Shown here: positions 13,673 to 21,527 of the stretch, one piece after another | How positions within the stretch are numbered: position 1 is the stretch's first letter | Layout of the letters: every line of letters starts with the position of its first letter | Position numbers and translations under genes: made by a program | The notes under the pieces: model-generated | What the model was told of the DNA's origin: nothing | What the model saw: only the letters and a program-made list of their open reading frames with translations | Databases searched by the model: none | DNA from: Isoptericola sp. QY 916 | GTDB taxonomy: Bacteria > Actinomycetota > Actinomycetes > Actinomycetales > Cellulomonadaceae | Reading direction: 5' to 3' | NCBI GenBank assembly: GCA_026934365.1 | Contig: JADHZE010000017.1 | Span: forward strand, 1-37,542 | DNA length: 37,542 nucleotides

Positions 13673-15151
13673 TCAGGAGGGGTCGGCGGCGGGGGCGTGC
13701 CGTTGCAGGAAGGCGAAGACGTCGGTGTCGTCGACGCCGGGGAACGCGCCGCGCGGCAGCGCCGCGAGCACCTGCTGGTGCATGCGGGCGCTGGGCCAGG
13801 CGACGCCGTCCCACCGCTCGGCGAGCTCGGCGGGCGGGCGCTGGCAGCACGACGGGTCGGGGCACGTGGAGGCGTGCCGCACCTGGGTGTCGCGCCCGCG
13901 GAACCACTTGGCGTGCGCGTACGGCACGCCCACGGTGATGGAGAACTGCCGCCCGTCCGCGCCGGTGCCGGTCTGGACCGAGTCCCAGAAGGTGCCCGCC
14001 GGGGTGTCGGTGTACTGGTACGACTCGGTGGCGCGGTCGCGGCGCGTGAACGCCTCGCGCCCCGCCCACCAGCGGCACACGAGCTGCCCCTCGATGGCGC
14101 CGGTCACGTCCTGCGGCAGGGGCAGCCCGTCGTTGGCGTAGCCGCGGAACAGCGCGCCGTCGTCGCCCACGCGCAGGAAGTGCAGCGGGATGCCGAGGTG
14201 CACGGTGGCGAGGTTGGTCAGGCGCATCGCCGCGGCCTCGTGCGTGACGCCGAACGCGTCACGGAAGTCCTCGACCGCCAGGTCCTTCTCCCGCTTGCGT
14301 CGCTGCAGGAACTCCACCGCGACCGACTGCGGGATGAGGCAGCTCGCCGCGAAGTAGGTGATCTCCACCCGTTGCTGCAGGAACTCGGCGTAGCTGCGCG
14401 GCCGCTCGTGGTCCAGCACGCGGTGCGCGATGGCCTGCAGCGCGAGCGAGCGCAGCCCGTGCCCGCCGGGGATGGACGCCGGCGGCAGGTAGATCCGGCC
14501 GTTCTTCAGGTCCGTGACCGACCGCGCCGACCGCGGCAGGTCGTCCACGTGCAGGATCGTCAGTCCCAGCTGCTCGGCCATCCGCGCCACCGTGCGGTGC
14601 GTGAGGGCGCCCGCCCCCGCGTACCCCGCGCGGTGGGTCAGCTCCTCGCCGAGCGCCTCGATCTGGGGCAGGTAGTTGTCGCGCACCTGGCGCTCGTGGC
14701 GCAGCTCGGTGTTCGCGCGGCGCGCCTCCTCGGGGGTGGCGATCGCCTCCTCCTCGCGCCGCGACAGCTCCGTGTGCAGGCCGACGAGCTGCTCCAGCAC
14801 GGGCATCGGGAGCTTCTGGCTGGGCTTGACCGACGGCAGGCCGAGCGCCCCGAAGAGCGGTCCGCGCTGCGCGCGCTCCAGGGCGATCTCCAGCTCCGCC
14901 CGGCGCGACGGCGGCTCGTCGGCGAGCAGGTCGGGCACGGCCACGCCCACGGCGTCGGCGATCGAGCGCAGCAGCGACAGGCGCGGCTCGCGCCGCCCGT
15001 TCTCGATCAGGGACAGCAGGCTCGGCGCCGATCCCACCCGCTCCCCCAGCGCCTCGAGCGTGAGGCCGCGCGACGTGCGCGCGTGCCGGATGCGCCGGCC
15101 GAGGGTGATGAGGTCCGGCGCATCCGCCCCGGGGACGTCCTTGGCAGCCAT
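13673..15151 (-). CDS. RamB/ScfR-type XRE regulator with ImmA/IrrE-like domain
   Basis: 492-residue transcription factor. An XRE helix-turn-helix is at about residues 15-75 ([24 protein letters not shown]...[15 protein letters not shown]). A linker follows, then an IrrE/ImmA-type region near 215-310 whose metal-site motif is degenerate ([10 protein letters not shown] instead of HEXXH), and a Cys-containing C-terminal domain ([10 protein letters not shown]). This is the architecture of C. glutamicum RamB and mycobacterial PrpR/RamB, which control acetate, propionate and glyoxylate metabolism and sense short-chain acyl-CoAs. It is divergent from pckA with 129 bp between starts, so PEPCK is a probable target. 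TAACGT lies exactly six bases before the ATG, so the mRNA is probably leaderless. Confidence 0.9.
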
Positions 15152-15280: not shown

Positions 15281-17221
15281 ATGACCTTCACCGCGAACCC
15301 GCGCCGCACGCGACTCGCGATCGCCGAGCTCGCCCCGGACGTCCTGGCCCCCAGCGCCCTGGCGCCCGCGGAGCACGCCGGCGCCGCATCGTCGCGCGCC
15401 ACCGCCCCGTCGCCGCGGGACCCCCGCGCCTGGGTACGGGAGATCGCCGAGCTCACGCAGCCCGACGAGGTCGTGTGGTGCGACGGCTCGCCCGCGGAGA
15501 AGCAGCGCCTGCTCGCCCAGATGGTCGATGCCGGCACGCTGATCAAGCTGGACGATGCGAAGCGGCCGAACTCCTACCTCGCCCGGTCGGACCCGTCCGA
15601 CGTCGCCCGCGTCGAGTCGCGCACCTTCATCTGCTCGGAACGCGAGGAGGACGCAGGCCCGACGAACAACTGGCGCGCGCCCGCCGAGATGCGCCAGGTG
15701 CTGACCGGGCCCGACGGCGTCTTCGCCGGCTCGATGCGCGGCCGCACCATGTACGTGGTGCCGTTCTCGATGGGACCCGTCGGCGGCCCGATCTCGCAGG
15801 TCGGCATCGAGATCACCGACTCGCCGTACGTCGTCGTGTCGATGCACGTCATGACGCGGGTCTCGCCGCAGGTCATGGACCTCGTCGACGGCGGGCAGCA
15901 GTGGGTGCCGGCCGTGCACACGGTGGGCGCCCCGCTGGCGGACGGCGAGGCCGACGTGCCGTGGCCCTGCAACGACACGAAGTACATCGTCCACTATCCC
16001 GAGACCCGCGAGATCTGGTCGTACGGCTCCGGCTACGGCGGCAACGCCCTGCTGGGCAAGAAGTGCTTCGCGCTGCGCATCGCGTCGGCGATGGCCCGCG
16101 ACGAGGGCTGGCTCGCCGAGCACATGCTGCTCGTCCGCGTCACCTCGCCGGAGCAGCGGCAGTACCACCTCGCCGCCGCGTTCCCGAGCGCGTGCGGCAA
16201 GACGAACCTCGCCATGCTGCGCCCGACCATCCCGGGCTGGACGGTCGAGACGCTCGGCGACGACATCGTCTGGATGCGCCCCGGCCCCGACGGCCGCCTT
16301 CGCGCCATCAACCCCGAGGCGGGCTTCTTCGGTGTCGCGCCGGGCACGGGCGTCGAGACCAACCCCACCGCCGTCGAGACCTTCACGCACGACGCGATCT
16401 TCACGAACGTGGCCCTGACCGACGACGGAGACGTGTGGTGGGAGGGCCTCACGCCCAAGCCGCCGGCGCACCTGATCGACTGGCAGGGCAACGACTGGGC
16501 GCCCGGCTCCGACACCCCGGCCGCGCACCCGAACTCCCGGTTCACGGTGTCGGCGGCGCAGTGCCCGTCCATCGCGGACGTCTGGGAGGACCCGGCCGGC
16601 GTGCCGGTCGACGCGATCGTCTTCGGCGGCCGCCGCGCCACCAACGTGCCGCTCGTGACCCAGGCGACGAGCTGGGACCACGGCGTCTTCATGGGCGCCA
16701 CGATCAGCTCCGAGCGGACGGCCGCGGCCGAGGGCACGGTCGGCGAGCTCCGTCGTGACCCGTTCGCGATGATGCCGTTCTGCGGCTACAACATGGCCGA
16801 CCACTGGTCGCACTGGCTGGCGGTGGGCAAGGGCCTCGACGCCGACAAGCGGCCCAAGGTGTTCCAGGTGAACTGGTTCCGCAAGGGCGAGGACGGCAGC
16901 TTCCTGTGGCCCGGGTTCGGCGAGAACTCGCGTGTCGTGGAGTGGATCGTCACCCAGCTCGACCGGGCGCGCGGCCTGCGCACCGACGCCGGCGCCGTGC
17001 ACTCCCCCGTCGGCCTGCTGCCCGCAAAGGGCGCGCTGCGCACCGACGGCCTCGACCTGACCGACGACGACCTCGCCGCCCTCTTCGACGTCCCGGCCGA
17101 GGCGTGGCTCGCCGAGACGGCGCTGACCGGCGAGTTCTTCGAGACCTTCGGCGACCGCGTGCCCGACCAGCTCTGGGCGCAGCTCTCCCTGCTGCGCGAG
17201 CGGCTCGGCGCGCGCGGCTGA
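15281..17221 (+). CDS. pckA: Phosphoenolpyruvate carboxykinase (GTP)
   Basis: 646-residue cytosolic enzyme converting oxaloacetate and GTP to phosphoenolpyruvate, CO2 and GDP, the entry to gluconeogenesis. The nucleotide-binding P-loop is FPSACGKTN at residues 301-309. Other family blocks are the [14 protein letters not shown] segment, [11 protein letters not shown] and [22 protein letters not shown]. The GTP type is clear, since the ATP-dependent enzyme lacks these blocks. About 45 Ala-rich residues precede the conserved domain, so the protein is slightly longer than the usual ~600-610; the ATG at 15281 with GGAG nearby is nevertheless the best start. The reading frame is open far upstream, but only because of GC bias. 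Probably controlled by the divergent RamB-like protein. Confidence 0.96.
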
Positions 17222-17353: not shown

Positions 17354-18460
17354 TCAGGCGTACACCGTGCCCATGAGCTCCCGGACGTCGGCGAGCGTGC
17401 GGTCGGCGACCTCGTTCGCCCGAGCGTTCCCCCGGGCGAGGACGTCGCGCACGACGGCGGGTCCGTCGGCGGCCAGGGCGGCCCGCCGCTCGCGCAGCGG
17501 ACGCAGCCCCTCCACGACCGCCTCCGTCACGACCGCCTTCAGCCGCCCCGCCCCGGCGTCGCCGACCGACGCGGCCAGTGCGTCCGGCGTCGTGCCCGCG
17601 AAGTGCGCGCCGATGCGCAGCAGGTTCGCCACCTCCGGCCGGTCCTCCGGGGCGTAGGCGATGTGCCGCTCGGAGTCGGTGCGGGCGCGACGGAAGAAGC
17701 GCACCGTATCGTCCTCGGTGGCCCGCAGCTCCAGCGCGTTGCCGCGCGACTTGCTCATCTTGGCGCCGTCGTTCCCCAGCACCGTGAGCGACCGCGTGAG
17801 CAGGGCCTCCGGCTCCGGGAAGTACGGGCGGGCGCCTGCGTACCGCTGGTTGAAGCGTCGCGCGACCGTCCGCGTCGTCTCCAGGTGCGGCAGTTGGTCG
17901 AGCCCCACGGGCACGAGGTTGCCGTGGCAGAACAGGATGTCCGCCGCCTGGTGCACCGGGTAGGTGAAGAGCAACCCGGACATGCCCCGCCCCTGCCGCT
18001 TCTCGGCGTCCGCGGCCTCCGCCTTCACGGTGGGGTTGCGCTCCAGCTCAGTCACGCTCACCAGCGACAGGAACGGCAGCAGCAGCTGGTTCAGGGCAGG
18101 CACCGCCGAGTGGGTGAACACCGTGGAGCGCGCCGGGTCGATGCCTGCGGCGAGGTAGTCGAGCACCACCTCGCGCACGACGGCGGGCAGGTCCCCGGCG
18201 TCGTCGCGGTCGGTGATGACCTGGTAGTCGGCGACGACGAGCACCACCTCGACCCCGGCGTCCTGCAGACGCACCCGGTTGTCGAGCGTGGCGAGCAGGT
18301 GGCCGAGGTGCAGCGTGCCGGTCGGCCGGTCGCCGGTGAGGACGCGGAAGCGGCCCGGGTCGCGCGCGATCTCCGCCTCGATCTCGGCGGAGCGGGCCTG
18401 CGCGACGGCGGCGCTCGTCGTCGCGGGGGTGGGGGTGGTCAGGACGGTCGGTGCGGTCAT
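17354..18460 (-). CDS. trpS: Tryptophanyl-tRNA synthetase
   Basis: 368-residue class I synthetase charging tRNA-Trp. The HIGH-type motif is HLGH at residues 51-54 (TGDRPTGTLHLGHL). The KMSKS motif is at 234-238 (AKMSKSRGN), with YPVHQAADILFCHGNLVPVGLDQLPHLE between. In the segment matching the well-studied Bacillus enzyme DQHAIT, this protein has DYQVIT. The His that contacts the inhibitor indolmycin there is therefore Gln here by my unaided alignment. Upstream lies a short leader peptide with three Trp codons and alternative hairpins, so expression is probably attenuated according to charged tRNA-Trp. AGGAG stands eight bases before the ATG. It could be the only TrpRS or an auxiliary copy; the window cannot decide. 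Confidence 0.95.
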   Translation of the reverse strand: MTAPTVLTTPTPATTSAAVAQARSAEIEAEIARDPGRFRVLTGDRPTGTLHLGHLLATLDNRVRLQDAGVEVVLVVADYQVITDRDDAGDLPAVVREVVLDYLAAGIDPARSTVFTHSAVPALNQLLLPFLSLVSVTELERNPTVKAEAADAEKRQGRGMSGLLFTYPVHQAADILFCHGNLVPVGLDQLPHLETTRTVARRFNQRYAGARPYFPEPEALLTRSLTVLGNDGAKMSKSRGNALELRATEDDTVRFFRRARTDSERHIAYAPEDRPEVANLLRIGAHFAGTTPDALAASVGDAGAGRLKAVVTEAVVEGLRPLRERRAALAADGPAVVRDVLARGNARANEVADRTLADVRELMGTVYA

Positions 18461-18486
18461 CGGTTCGGCTCCTCAGGAGGATCGCC

Positions 18487-18563
18487 GCCCGTCGGACCGG
18501 TCCGGACACGAGAACGCCCCGGCTGCGACGGGCAGCTCGGGACGGGGACGTGGGCGCGTCGGG
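18487..18563 (-). promoter_or_regulatory. Candidate trpS attenuator (alternative hairpins)
   Basis: Minus-strand RNA after the leader stop. One hairpin pairs CCCG-A-GCUGC (18541-18532) with GCAGC-CGGG (18526-18518) around loop CCGUC; this is the proposed terminator. The GCUGC arm can instead pair with GCAGC inside the leader (18573-18569), itself able to pair with GGCUGC at 18583-18578 just after the Trp codons. A further exclusive pairing joins GCCCGUCG (18533-18526) with CGACGGGC (18494-18487). No clean U-run follows, so termination strength is uncertain. The CTCC-TGA-GGAG fold at 18479-18469 could also mask the trpS ribosome site. Confidence 0.6.
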
Positions 18564-18608
18564 TCAGGGCTGCGGAGGCAGCCACCACCAGCTCGCGCGC
18601 GTCGTCAT
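18564..18608 (-). CDS. Trp-rich leader peptide (MTTRASWWWLPPQP)
   Basis: A 14-codon open frame ahead of trpS on the same strand with three consecutive TGG codons at residues 7-9 and a TGA stop. TAGGCT lies exactly six bases before its ATG, so it is probably translated from the very 5' end of a leaderless transcript. Trp is rare and three in a row in so short a peptide ahead of a Trp synthetase gene is the classical attenuator arrangement. A ribosome waiting for charged tRNA-Trp would mask the first pairing segment and free the second. Streptomyces trpRS1 is known to be regulated by this kind of ribosome-mediated attenuation. The gene is too short for ORF callers. Confidence 0.85.
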   Translation of the reverse strand: MTTRASWWWLPPQP

Positions 18609-18614
18609 GACGTC

Positions 18615-18620
18615 AGCCTA
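18615..18620 (-). promoter_or_regulatory. -10 hexamer TAGGCT for the trpS leader
   Basis: TAGGCT-N6-ATG ahead of the Trp leader peptide, identical in box and spacing to the S33 peptidase promoter at 7131. It places the trpS transcription start about 148 bases before the trpS ATG. Confidence 0.65.
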
Positions 18621-18731: not shown

Positions 18732-21527
18732 GTGGAGAACGCAGCACGACGCCCGACCGGGACCACCCAGGGCCAGGCCCCGATCCTGGGCCGGGACGCC
18801 GAGCTCGCCCGCGTCGAACGCCTCGCCGCCCCGGGTTCGGGCGGCGTGCTGCTCTTCGTCGGAGAACCGGGACTGGGCAAGACGACCCTGCTGGAGCACG
18901 GTCGCGAGCTCGCCCGCCGGTCGGGACGGCACGTCCTCACGGCGCGGTGCGCGCGCGGCGAGCGCGATCTGCCGTTCGCCGCGCTGCACCAGCTCCTGCT
19001 GCCGCGTCTCGACCGCCTCGACCGCCTGCCGGCGCCGCAGGCCCGCGCGCTCGGGGCAGCCCTCGGCCTGCACGAGGCCACGGCCGTCCCGGACCGGCTG
19101 CACCTGGCAGCGGGGGCGCTCACGCTCCTGTGCGACGTCGGGCCCTCCACGAGCGACGGCTCCAGCGACAGCGGCACTCTCGCCGTCGTCGACGACCTGC
19201 ACTGGGCGGACGACGCCTCCCGCGACGTCCTGCTGTTCTGCGCCCGCCGGCTGGCCGACGCGTCCGCCGGGACGTCCCTCCTCCTGTCCACGCGGCCGGA
19301 GGCACCCGAGCCCCTCCCGACGATCACCCTGTCGAGCCTCGACCCCCGTGACGCCGCCCGGGTCCTCGACCTGCAGCCCGTCCCTCCCGCCGCTGCCGTG
19401 CGGCACGACCTCATCCAGCACGCGGCCGGGAACCCCCTGGCGCTCGTCGAGCTGTCCCGCGCCGACGCCGCGGTGCCCTCGCCCGCGTCGTCCGACGGCC
19501 CCTGGCCGGTGAGCGGGCGGATCGAGCGGGCGTTCGCCTCCCGGCTCCCCGCGCTGCCCGCGCCGACGCGCTGGCTGCTGCTCCTCGCCGCGGCGGCCGA
19601 CGGCGACGACCTCGCGCCCGTCCTCGCCGCCGCCGGTGACGTGCCCGACGACGACCGGCTGGTCGCGTGGGCACCGGCCGAGACCGCGGGCCTCGTCCAC
19701 CTGGACGGGCCCCGCTTCCGGTTCCGTCACCCGCTGGCACGCGCCGCCGTCTACCACGCCGCGCCCTTCGCGGAACGACGTGGCGCACACCTGGCCCTGG
19801 CGGAGGCCGTCGACGACCTCGACCGGCGCGCCTGGCACCGCGCGGCCGCCGCCGTCGGCCCCGACACCGCCGTGGCGACCGACCTCGAGGCCACGGCCGA
19901 CCGGGCCCGCGAGCGAGGGGGCTGGGCCGCGAGCGCCCGCGCGCTCGAGCGTGCGGGCGAGCTCTCGGCAACCTCGGACGAGGCGGCGCGCCGCTTCGTG
20001 CTCGCGGCACCGGCCGCCATGTACACCGGGCGCACGGCCTGGGTGGAGCGCCTGGCGGACCGCGCCCTCGAGGCCACCGACGACGAGCACACGCGCTGGG
20101 AGGCCGACCTCTACGGGGGATGGGCGGCTGCCTCGACGCCCCGCCACCGCGCCGCCGTCGAACGGCTGACGACCGTCGCGCGCCGGGCGGGGGCGTCCGA
20201 CCCCCAGCTGGCCCTCGCCGCGCTGGCCCCCGCCGCCGTGACGGCCTACTACTCCGGCGACGACGAGCTGATCGACGACGTCGCGCGCTGCCTCGAGGCG
20301 CTGCACCCGGACGAGACCGTGCCGGTGACCGCGTGGGTGCGGGCCGCGGCCGCGCCGTTCGCCCCGGCGTCGCGCGCCACGCTGGACGGCGCGGTCCGGG
20401 CGGCCACGCACCTCGGCATCAGCGAGCTCAACGTGCTCGGCGGGGCGGCGTGGATGCTCGACGAGACCGGGCTGGCCGCGCGGTTGCTCGGCGAGCTGCT
20501 GGAGCTGTTCTCCCACGGCCCCACGCAGGGGGCCAACGCCCTCGTCACGGCGACCCTCGCCGCTGCGCTGCACGAGCTCGGCAGGTGGGACGACGCCCAG
20601 GGGCACGTCGAGGACGCGGTGCGCGTCGCGGAGGCGACAGGGATGCCGGTCGTGCGGGCGGCCGCGGTCGAGACGGCCGCCCTGCTCGCCGCCGGCCGAG
20701 GCAGGACGGACGAGGCCCGAGAGCTCGCGCAGCACGCGCTCGCCGACGTGGGGCCCGGGGCGACCCGGTCGGTGGAGGTGCGCGCGCGACAGGCGCTCGG
20801 TCTCGCCTCCCTGGTCGCCGGCGAGCCCGAGGCCGCCTACGACGCCCTCCGCCGGACCTTCGCCCCGGACGGGCGCCCCACCCACCGGCACGCCTCGGTG
20901 CACGGGATCGCGCTGCTCGCCTCCGCCGCCGCTCGCGCGGACCGGCCCGAGCGGCTCGAGGACGCGGCCCAGGTGCTCTCCGCCGTCACGGCACACGTCG
21001 GCGACGCCCCCGGGCCGCGGGTGGCGGCCCTGCTGCACCACGCCCGCGCCCTGCTGGCGTCCCCCGACGACGCGGTGGGCGAGTACCGCGCCGCGCTGGC
21101 CGACCCTGCCGGCGCCACCTGGCCGTTCGAGCGTGCCCTCGTCCGGCTCGACCTCGGCGAGCGGCTGCGGCGCCTGCAGCGTGTGAGCGAGGCACGGACC
21201 GAGCTCAGCGCCGCGCGCGAGACCTTCCTCCGGATCGGCGCCGCCTCGTTCGCGGACCGGGCGAGCGCCGAGCTCCGCGCCGCCGGGGTCGCGGTGGCGG
21301 AGCGCACGCCCGACGCCCTCGCACAGCTCACTCCCCAGCAGCGCCGCATCGTGCGGCTGGCGGCCGAGGGACGCACCAACCGGGAGATCGCGGAGCGCCT
21401 CTTCCTGTCCCCCCGGACGGTCGGGTTCCATCTCTACCGGGTGTTCCCGCTGCTCGGCGTGACGTCGCGCGGCCAGCTGCGCGACCTGGTCGACGCCGGG
21501 GCCTCCGAACCGCGACCAGTCATCTGA
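18732..21527 (+). CDS. LuxR/LAL-family regulator with AAA ATPase domain
   Basis: 931-residue regulator of the large ATP-binding LuxR class. The Walker A motif is GEPGLGKTT (residues 44-52). Walker B is AVVDDLHWAD near 150-160, and the RHPLARAAVYHA segment near 335 is typical of LALs. A long alpha-helical TPR-like region runs to about 850. The C-terminal LuxR helix-turn-helix is at about 865-925 (LTPQQRRIVRLAAEGRTNREIAERLFLSPRTVGFHLYRVFPLLGV). LALs usually activate nearby metabolic operons in response to a ligand. The GTG start is inferred from the first conserved residues and TCAGAT six bases upstream. It is 60 bp before two coupled hydrolases on the same strand, the likely targets or operon partners. 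Confidence 0.9.
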   Translation: MENAARRPTGTTQGQAPILGRDAELARVERLAAPGSGGVLLFVGEPGLGKTTLLEHGRELARRSGRHVLTARCARGERDLPFAALHQLLLPRLDRLDRLPAPQARALGAALGLHEATAVPDRLHLAAGALTLLCDVGPSTSDGSSDSGTLAVVDDLHWADDASRDVLLFCARRLADASAGTSLLLSTRPEAPEPLPTITLSSLDPRDAARVLDLQPVPPAAAVRHDLIQHAAGNPLALVELSRADAAVPSPASSDGPWPVSGRIERAFASRLPALPAPTRWLLLLAAAADGDDLAPVLAAAGDVPDDDRLVAWAPAETAGLVHLDGPRFRFRHPLARAAVYHAAPFAERRGAHLALAEAVDDLDRRAWHRAAAAVGPDTAVATDLEATADRARERGGWAASARALERAGELSATSDEAARRFVLAAPAAMYTGRTAWVERLADRALEATDDEHTRWEADLYGGWAAASTPRHRAAVERLTTVARRAGASDPQLALAALAPAAVTAYYSGDDELIDDVARCLEALHPDETVPVTAWVRAAAAPFAPASRATLDGAVRAATHLGISELNVLGGAAWMLDETGLAARLLGELLELFSHGPTQGANALVTATLAAALHELGRWDDAQGHVEDAVRVAEATGMPVVRAAAVETAALLAAGRGRTDEARELAQHALADVGPGATRSVEVRARQALGLASLVAGEPEAAYDALRRTFAPDGRPTHRHASVHGIALLASAAARADRPERLEDAAQVLSAVTAHVGDAPGPRVAALLHHARALLASPDDAVGEYRAALADPAGATWPFERALVRLDLGERLRRLQRVSEARTELSAARETFLRIGAASFADRASAELRAAGVAVAERTPDALAQLTPQQRRIVRLAAEGRTNREIAERLFLSPRTVGFHLYRVFPLLGVTSRGQLRDLVDAGASEPRPVI

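Follow-up and report, generated by a model that had tools for sequence, protein, structure and literature searches.

The auxiliary tryptophanyl-tRNA synthetase (TrpRS) gene of Isoptericola sp. QY 916 is most probably governed by a ribosome-mediated attenuator: a conserved reading frame with three Trp codons and a set of mutually exclusive RNA pairings, both read from the sequence, predict that expression of this trpS would rise when charged tRNA-Trp is scarce. Leader and gene lie on the minus strand of the window, by which we mean the whole stretch of 37,542 nt analysed here (contig JADHZE010000017.1 of assembly GCA_026934365.1), and their parts are collected in Table 1. An initial annotation of the window had described TAGGCT, six nucleotides and an ATG, then a 14-codon frame with three TGG codons (minus strand, 18620-18564), and ahead of trpS four segments able to pair as 1:2, 2:3 and 3:4 (18583-18515); both descriptions hold. 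Its reading of the region as a Trp attenuator is supported by the conservation of the leader, by the joint change of the segments between lineages, by the geometry of the ribosome on the leader and by the occurrence in the genome of another TrpRS, of the His type. Rfam, including its trp leader and T-box models, gave no match above the gathering score in the window, and at a relaxed threshold two matches, both far below gathering.

Table 1. Parts of the putative trpS attenuator and the gene behind it (positions in the window)
Feature	Position	Strand	Remark
-10 hexamer TAGGCT (TANNNT)	18615..18620	-	6 nt before leader ATG
Leader reading frame MTTRASWWWLPPQP, 14 codons and stop	18564..18608	-	ATG at 18608
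Three consecutive UGG codons TGGTGGTGG	18582..18590	-	inside leader frame MTTRASWWWLPPQP
Segment 1 GGCUGC, predicted to pair with 2	18578..18583	-	sequence and folding
Segment 2 GCAGCC, predicted to pair with 1 or 3	18568..18573	-	sequence and folding
Segment 3 CGUCCCGAGCUGC, predicted to pair with 2, 4 or 5	18532..18544	-	sequence and folding
Segment 4 GCAGCCGGGGCG, predicted to pair with 3; terminator-like hairpin without U-run	18515..18526	-	sequence and folding
GCUGCCCGUCG: end of segment 3, loop of 3:4, single base of segment 4; 11 bp of complementarity with segment 5	18526..18536	-	
Segment 5 CGACGGGCGGC	18484..18494	-	9 nt upstream of trpS Shine-Dalgarno
Likely trpS Shine-Dalgarno GAGGAG	18469..18474	-	sequence
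Auxiliary tryptophanyl-tRNA synthetase gene trpS, 368 aa	17354..18460	-	ATG at 18460; VADYQVIT motif

The surroundings of the gene can be described briefly. A large frame at 18732-21527 (+) runs divergently from the trpS leader, its listed start and the -10 box of the leader being some 110 nt apart, and its product is presumably a large AAA/LuxR-like regulator. Convergent to trpS lies a gene at about 15400-17221 (+), for which the listed frame begins far upstream of the likely start and which, by its sequence, we take to resemble phosphoenolpyruvate carboxykinase; beside it, a frame at 13673-15151 (-) has an N-terminal helix-turn-helix-like region and presumably resembles regulators of the RamB/ScfR type.

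A comparison of the leader across relatives, proposed in the initial annotation, found the Trp leader at all 17 loci examined, one in the window and 16 in relatives (L003-L018). In all 17, TANNNT stands 6-7 nt before the leader ATG, and from this spacing the leader transcript is predicted to be leaderless. Within the genome itself, the pattern TANNNT-N5-8-ATG-N6-33-TGGTGG has nine matches at eight distinct places, and the pattern read backwards has three; among the eight places, three TGG codons in a row (TGGTGGTGG) occur only at the trpS leader.

A covariance model of the leader, built from the 17 sequences, was run on 150 family genomes, many of which are of the same species as L003-L018, so that the two sets overlap. 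It gave 56 strong matches (E < 1e-10), of which 53 lie before a near full-length auxiliary trpS, one before a broken copy (G037) and one before a truncated copy (G145); the remaining match is an orphan (G142). The same 150 genomes hold 67 auxiliary trpS loci, in 66 genomes, when the places listed at 60% identity or more are counted, with two loci in G027 and two pieces in G037 taken as one; the 55 strong matches beside auxiliary trpS, together with eight divergent leaders, account for 63 of the 67. These eight, which come from the 12 auxiliary loci without a strong match, have Trp codons and TANNNT, five of them being weak model matches, and were found by a looser pattern without an antisense control (the frame of G057 reads WRW). 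No Trp leader was found at four of the 67 loci (G035, G020, G010 and G052). In a scan common to both types of gene, WW frames were present upstream of auxiliary trpS at 30 of 30 loci, and upstream of primary trpS at 0 of 21.

Three of the family genomes show less usual arrangements. At G145:C1:567072-567526 (L194) an intact leader stands closely before a remnant of trpS, of which only the final third is left. In G027 there are two auxiliary trpS copies (contigs C25 and C66; L197 and L198), each with its own leader, and a third match was counted in that genome. The orphan at G142:C74:101606-101704 (L124, L196) has no trpS in the fetched DNA and reads CTG at the position of the ATG; loss of the leader start codon where trpS is gone is consistent with a role of the leader in trpS control.

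Outside the family the leader model (R1) matched in 47 of 394 genomes at E <= 0.1, strongly only in G000 and G021 and with the next best match at 6.2e-4; given the weakness of these matches, distant leaders were sought by reading frame instead. WW frames precede 17 of 63 distant auxiliary trpS genes (a set that excludes L024, where there is too little upstream DNA); the antisense strand gave 0 of 63, and shuffles 1.1%. TANNNT lies just before the start in 12 of these 17, and a few of the frames (such as L021 and L078) look like chance. At the level of the class, 21 of 28 auxiliary trpS genes have a WW frame and 0 of 28 have one in antisense, the 28 being the best 28 of 46 auxiliary matches in the 394 genomes, with the window and G021 not among them; here TANNNT was close before the scanned start, which is the start nearest to the Trp codons, in only eight of the 28. 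Weak R1 matches lie upstream of class-level auxiliary trpS in both G265 and G306, and a Trp leader was found in G265 and none in G306. By these counts the Trp leader appears before auxiliary trpS beyond chance.

The attenuator that we propose would work as follows. The leader ATG would be the start of transcription; a ribosome paused on the first Trp codon would cover segment 1, leaving segment 2 to pair with segment 3; a ribosome at the stop codon would cover segment 2, upon which 3:4 would form and transcription would stop despite the poor U-run. In readthrough RNA, and this step is less certain, segment 5 may compete for segment 3, which would then be a hub with three partners, and the switch may touch translation of trpS too. 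The initial annotation had reasoned along the same lines for stall and stop, and the geometry bears this out: in the window the start of segment 2 lies 17 nt past the first Trp codon, with the stop codon beyond segment 2, and with an assumed ribosome footprint of 14 nt from the A-site codon, a stall at the Trp codons would mask segment 1 and not segment 2, and a ribosome at the stop would mask segment 2. The distance from the start of the Trp run to that of segment 2 is 14-20 nt in 29 of 36 loci, and in the remaining seven the program had picked a different hairpin.

Nested transcripts, the folding of which had also been suggested, behave similarly in prediction. If a ribosome occupies the first or the second Trp codon, RNAs that end at 80 and 87 fold best as 2:3, which gives way to 3:4 once segment 4 has emerged; if it occupies the stop, 2:3 is never seen, and 3:4 is present from end 87 onwards other than at 129, an RNA in which segments 3 and 4 are paired with downstream sequence. 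At equilibrium the 3:4 probability exceeds 0.5 in 26, 25 and 24 of 27 loci (without ribosome, stalled and at the stop, respectively), these 27 being those of the 35 loci used below for the fifth segment that were selected for how far segment 5 lies from the Shine-Dalgarno sequence. Since 3:4 prevails at equilibrium whatever the state of the ribosome, control would have to be kinetic; control in the E. coli trp leader is kinetic.

The folding energies in the window are -10.9 kcal/mol for 1:2, -13.7 kcal/mol for segments 2 and 3 with the intervening sequence, and -21.3 kcal/mol for 3:4, which comprises 12 bp with a bulge. The initial annotation had put 2:3 at about 5 bp, which is too low; the fold of segments 2 and 3 also has a further short helix inside. 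As modelled, 2:3 in the window is stronger than had been stated and weaker than 3:4. Taken alone, the 2:3 duplex of the window is not significant, being equalled by 14.8% of 500 shuffles.

For the comparison between lineages, hairpins were picked automatically at the 36 loci (L193, mispicked, is among them and was excluded from the 3:5 test), and segment 2 falls into three classes: GCAG in 23 loci, covering the window's family, its divergent members, Kocuria, Nocardioides L074 and Microbacterium; ACGG in six, from Austwickia, Georgenia, Micropruina, Propioniciclava and two MAGs; and neither in seven, mostly GGCGGC, from Terrabacter, Terracoccus, Intrasporangium, Nocardioides L080, G013 and G099, with GUAGCC in Nocardia. 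The mean 2:3 duplex within these classes is -8.9, -9.5 and -10.7 kcal/mol, whereas across classes it is -5.2 to -7.7 kcal/mol in five of six combinations; the exception is third-class segment 2 with second-class segment 3, which pair well through G-U (-11.2 kcal/mol). Over all 36 loci, the 2:3 duplex of a locus averages -9.5 kcal/mol, compared with -5.6 kcal/mol when segment 3 is shuffled. The segments thus appear to change jointly between lineages, their sets being rewritten as a whole, with one cross-class exception; the 3:4 hairpin is present in lineages of different sequence. Covariation inside the family is weak (34 of 500 shuffles reach the score, and 2:3 is without variation) because the core pairs are nearly invariant, and such a core neither proves nor disproves pairing.

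A fifth segment had been missed by the initial annotation, and the conserved candidate pairing that it would provide, beyond the four segments, is new here. Segment 5 is complementary to the 5' arm and the loop of hairpin 3:4, and for window RNA ending at 129 to 143 the best fold is the 3:5 hairpin. When compared with shuffled downstream DNA, 3:5 reaches p < 0.05 in 21 of 35 loci and p < 0.01 in 12, all loci being counted as they stood, including three with no trpS start (L005, L036 and L056) and three with a wrong one (L182, L048 and L052). A second set, made up of class-level loci not used before, gave 14 of 21 at p < 0.05 and 12 of 21 at p < 0.01; nine of these 21 are close relatives forming the MLVWWLPS group, all nine of them significant, and outside the group five of 12 reach p < 0.05. 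The pairing is not significant in 14 of the 35 and seven of the 21 loci.

The loop offers a separate view of the same pairing. When only the arm is used to set the register, 102 of 146 loop bases are paired, whereas loops swapped between loci average 48%, and 0 of 1000 such swaps, made over unselected loci, reach 102 of 146. In the 27 loci selected above for a segment 5 close to the Shine-Dalgarno sequence, the first loop position is C-G in 11, U-G in six, A-U in four, U-A in three and unpaired in three, and in 20 of the 27 no other stretch of the locus's own leader matches the downstream DNA as well. A broader reading, which we hold tentatively and would put at somewhat below an even chance, is that of a five-segment switch across the Actinomycetes, in which segment 3 would be a hub pairing with 2 (under starvation), 4 (stopping transcription) or 5 (beside the ribosome-binding site of trpS), a single Trp leader would set both transcription and translation of the auxiliary synthetase, and entire segment sets would have been rewritten together in the course of lineage divergence.

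The same segment could point to a leader that is mainly a translational switch, in which 3:4 is no terminator and segment 5 is either sequestered by segment 3 or able to fold across the ribosome-binding site; we consider this rather unlikely. Where 3:5 is significant, segment 5 ends 7-14 nt before the Shine-Dalgarno sequence, a placement that suits such a role. The energies, calculated in 22 loci chosen by this distance and also by p < 0.06, cut both ways: when the RNA stops at segment 5, the stability of 3:5 equals or exceeds that of 3:4 in 11 of the 22 (differences from -6.9 to +9.7 kcal/mol), but once the RNA extends over the trpS start, the 3:5 fold is inferior to the best fold in 21 of them, by 2-21 kcal/mol. 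Forcing 3:5 mostly opens the Shine-Dalgarno sequence (opened in 12 loci, closed in two) and the AUG (15 and three), as a translational switch would have it; if 3:5 opens the site, however, a stalled ribosome, with its 2:3 pairing, would be of no help, and the effect would have the wrong sign. Nor does the predicted openness of the Shine-Dalgarno sequence depend on the state of the ribosome, being greater in 0 and smaller in two of 27 loci.

The absence of a U-run after the hairpin, named as the weak point in the initial annotation, is real: the tail in the window reads UUCUCGUGUC, and most of the 46 distinct family leaders examined likewise have no U-run after 3:4. The 10 nt that follow the 3:4 stem nevertheless contain 24% U versus 10.6% further on, with the higher value after the stem in 35 of the 46. 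The poor U-run favours translational control, against which stand the U-runs found after 3:4 in seven of the 21 class-level loci (L211, L215, L216, L217, L225, L228 and L232); six of these seven leaders are without significant 3:5, unlike those that have no U-run. In the first set U content showed no correlation with 3:5 (Spearman -0.16, p 0.39, n=32). A window without a U-run would also agree with Rho-dependent termination, as proposed for actinobacterial cys leaders without terminators in the accessible text of one study (Seliverstov 2005, PMC1262725), with a stalled or missing ribosome exposing or hiding a Rho loading site that the hairpins only shape. This we regard as quite improbable, in view of a 3:4 hairpin that is present across lineages of different sequence and is followed in some of them by U-runs.

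The leader peptide itself deserves attention, as its conserved end, WWWLPPQP followed by the stop codon, might stall the ribosome directly. TnaC, too, ends in Pro-stop, and LxxQP is found in most of the family leaders listed, with L105 ending in QS; yet it is the paired GGCUGC and GCAGCC that encode the retained residues, those in between are variable (PP, PS, HP, HS, HE, HL, RQ, QQ), and other lineages combine unrelated tails with similar hairpins. Given that the kept residues track the paired bases, we rejected the leader as an arrest peptide, the probability of which we judge to be very small. A fortuitous WWW frame in a GC-rich upstream region has a negligible chance of being the explanation, refuted as it is by conservation across loci, by the zero count of antisense frames and by the single place of TGGTGGTGG in the genome.

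A search of the genome for a second trpS, as the initial annotation had advised, found a His-type TrpRS on contig C8 that is 36% identical to the TrpRS of the window. At the place of Bacillus His43, with the position matched by motif, the C8 enzyme reads VVDLHALT and the window enzyme VADYQVIT, so that the Gln claimed earlier for this position is seen against His in the second enzyme. Among named proteins, those closest to it come from Isoptericola. By sequence, the solved structures that best match the window TrpRS are 1yi8 and 2a4m (the second bears the name tryptophanyl-tRNA synthetase II); we take both to be from Deinococcus. The motifs AADI and VPVGLDQ (VPVGxDQ) are retained in the window TrpRS, again by motif match, and presumably correspond to Bacillus Asp132 and Gln147. 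In Bacillus TrpRS, His43 is implicated in indolmycin sensitivity, with H43N leading to resistance, and Asp132 and Gln147 are determinants of indolmycin binding (accessible text of PMC4899734); S. griseus has a second, indolmycin-resistant TrpRS according to the accessible part of a review (PMC6804068). With a second gene in the genome and a changed residue at this place, the window TrpRS would fit the auxiliary, indolmycin-resistant type of Streptomyces trpRS1.

Resistance may not be the whole purpose. In G010, G075 and G096 only an auxiliary-type TrpRS was found, the His type having been searched for there and not found; G075 and G096 keep the leader, and none was found in G010. Among the matches listed for class-level genomes, G386, G379 and G285 each have a single TrpRS, of the auxiliary type and without a WW leader. 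The presence of the leader hence does not depend on the enzyme being a spare one, nor does a sole enzyme require it. Of the earlier proposal of a synthetase inducible by starvation or antibiotic, the Trp-attenuator part has been strengthened and the antibiotic part weakened: because the leader stands before the only TrpRS found in G075 and G096, antibiotic resistance alone is unlikely as its purpose, and the switch may serve the balance of tRNA charging as well. Its wider significance lies in a synthetase leader found in many lineages of one bacterial class with lineage-specific pairing codes, which offers many natural replicates of one predicted switch and points to a conserved pairing beyond the textbook four segments.

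The classical model is the attenuator of the E. coli trp operon, with its 1:2, 2:3 and 3:4 logic, its stop codon by segment 2 and its 3:4 pairing more stable than 2:3. The window shares all of these features with it, but differs in that a synthetase would be controlled, the transcript is likely leaderless, the U-run is poor and a fifth segment lies near the trpS start. Closer to the window is trpRS1 of S. coelicolor, for which Vecchione and Sello reportedly described, in 2010, ribosome-mediated attenuation of a gene that encodes an auxiliary, indolmycin-resistant TrpRS and is preceded by a Trp leader; the window likewise has an auxiliary TrpRS gene, a Trp leader and predicted attenuation, a likeness at the level of description.

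Related leaders have been reported in other streptomycetes. A trpS2 attenuator was predicted in S. avermitilis, and trpS and leuS attenuators in some Streptomyces (accessible text of Seliverstov 2005, PMC1262725), while in S. lividans TK24 a leader, trpL2, precedes trpS (accessible text of PMC8079986). The window resembles both the TK24 trpL2-trpS and the S. avermitilis trpS2 arrangements, as those texts present them, in having a Trp leader before trpS with hairpins; trpL2 is leaderless and without a U-rich stretch, and the window leader is predicted to be leaderless and has no U-run. They differ in that trpL2 has one Trp codon (MMTRTCTQLWRAA) and the window leader three, and in the fifth segment of the window, none being described for either system in the accessible texts. 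No description of such a segment was found in any of the accessible texts cited here. Literature searches on trpS leaders with Cellulomonas found nothing; those on attenuation and leader peptides with Micrococcales found, in the text accessible, only histidine in Corynebacterium, and those on TrpRS1 leaders in Streptomyces, with the same limit, only work on Bacillus cereus.

The nearest parallel to the fifth segment is the LEU element before leuA in Actinobacteria, which, in the accessible text (PMC1262725), also combines a leader of regulatory codons with a distant pairing that reaches the Shine-Dalgarno region; in the LEU element the leucine codons pair with the Shine-Dalgarno sequence itself, whereas in the window the loop and 5' arm of 3:4 would pair with a stretch before it. 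Judged on its sequence, the window leader is best read as a ribosome-mediated attenuator resembling that reported for Streptomyces trpRS1, to which a further conserved candidate pairing is added.
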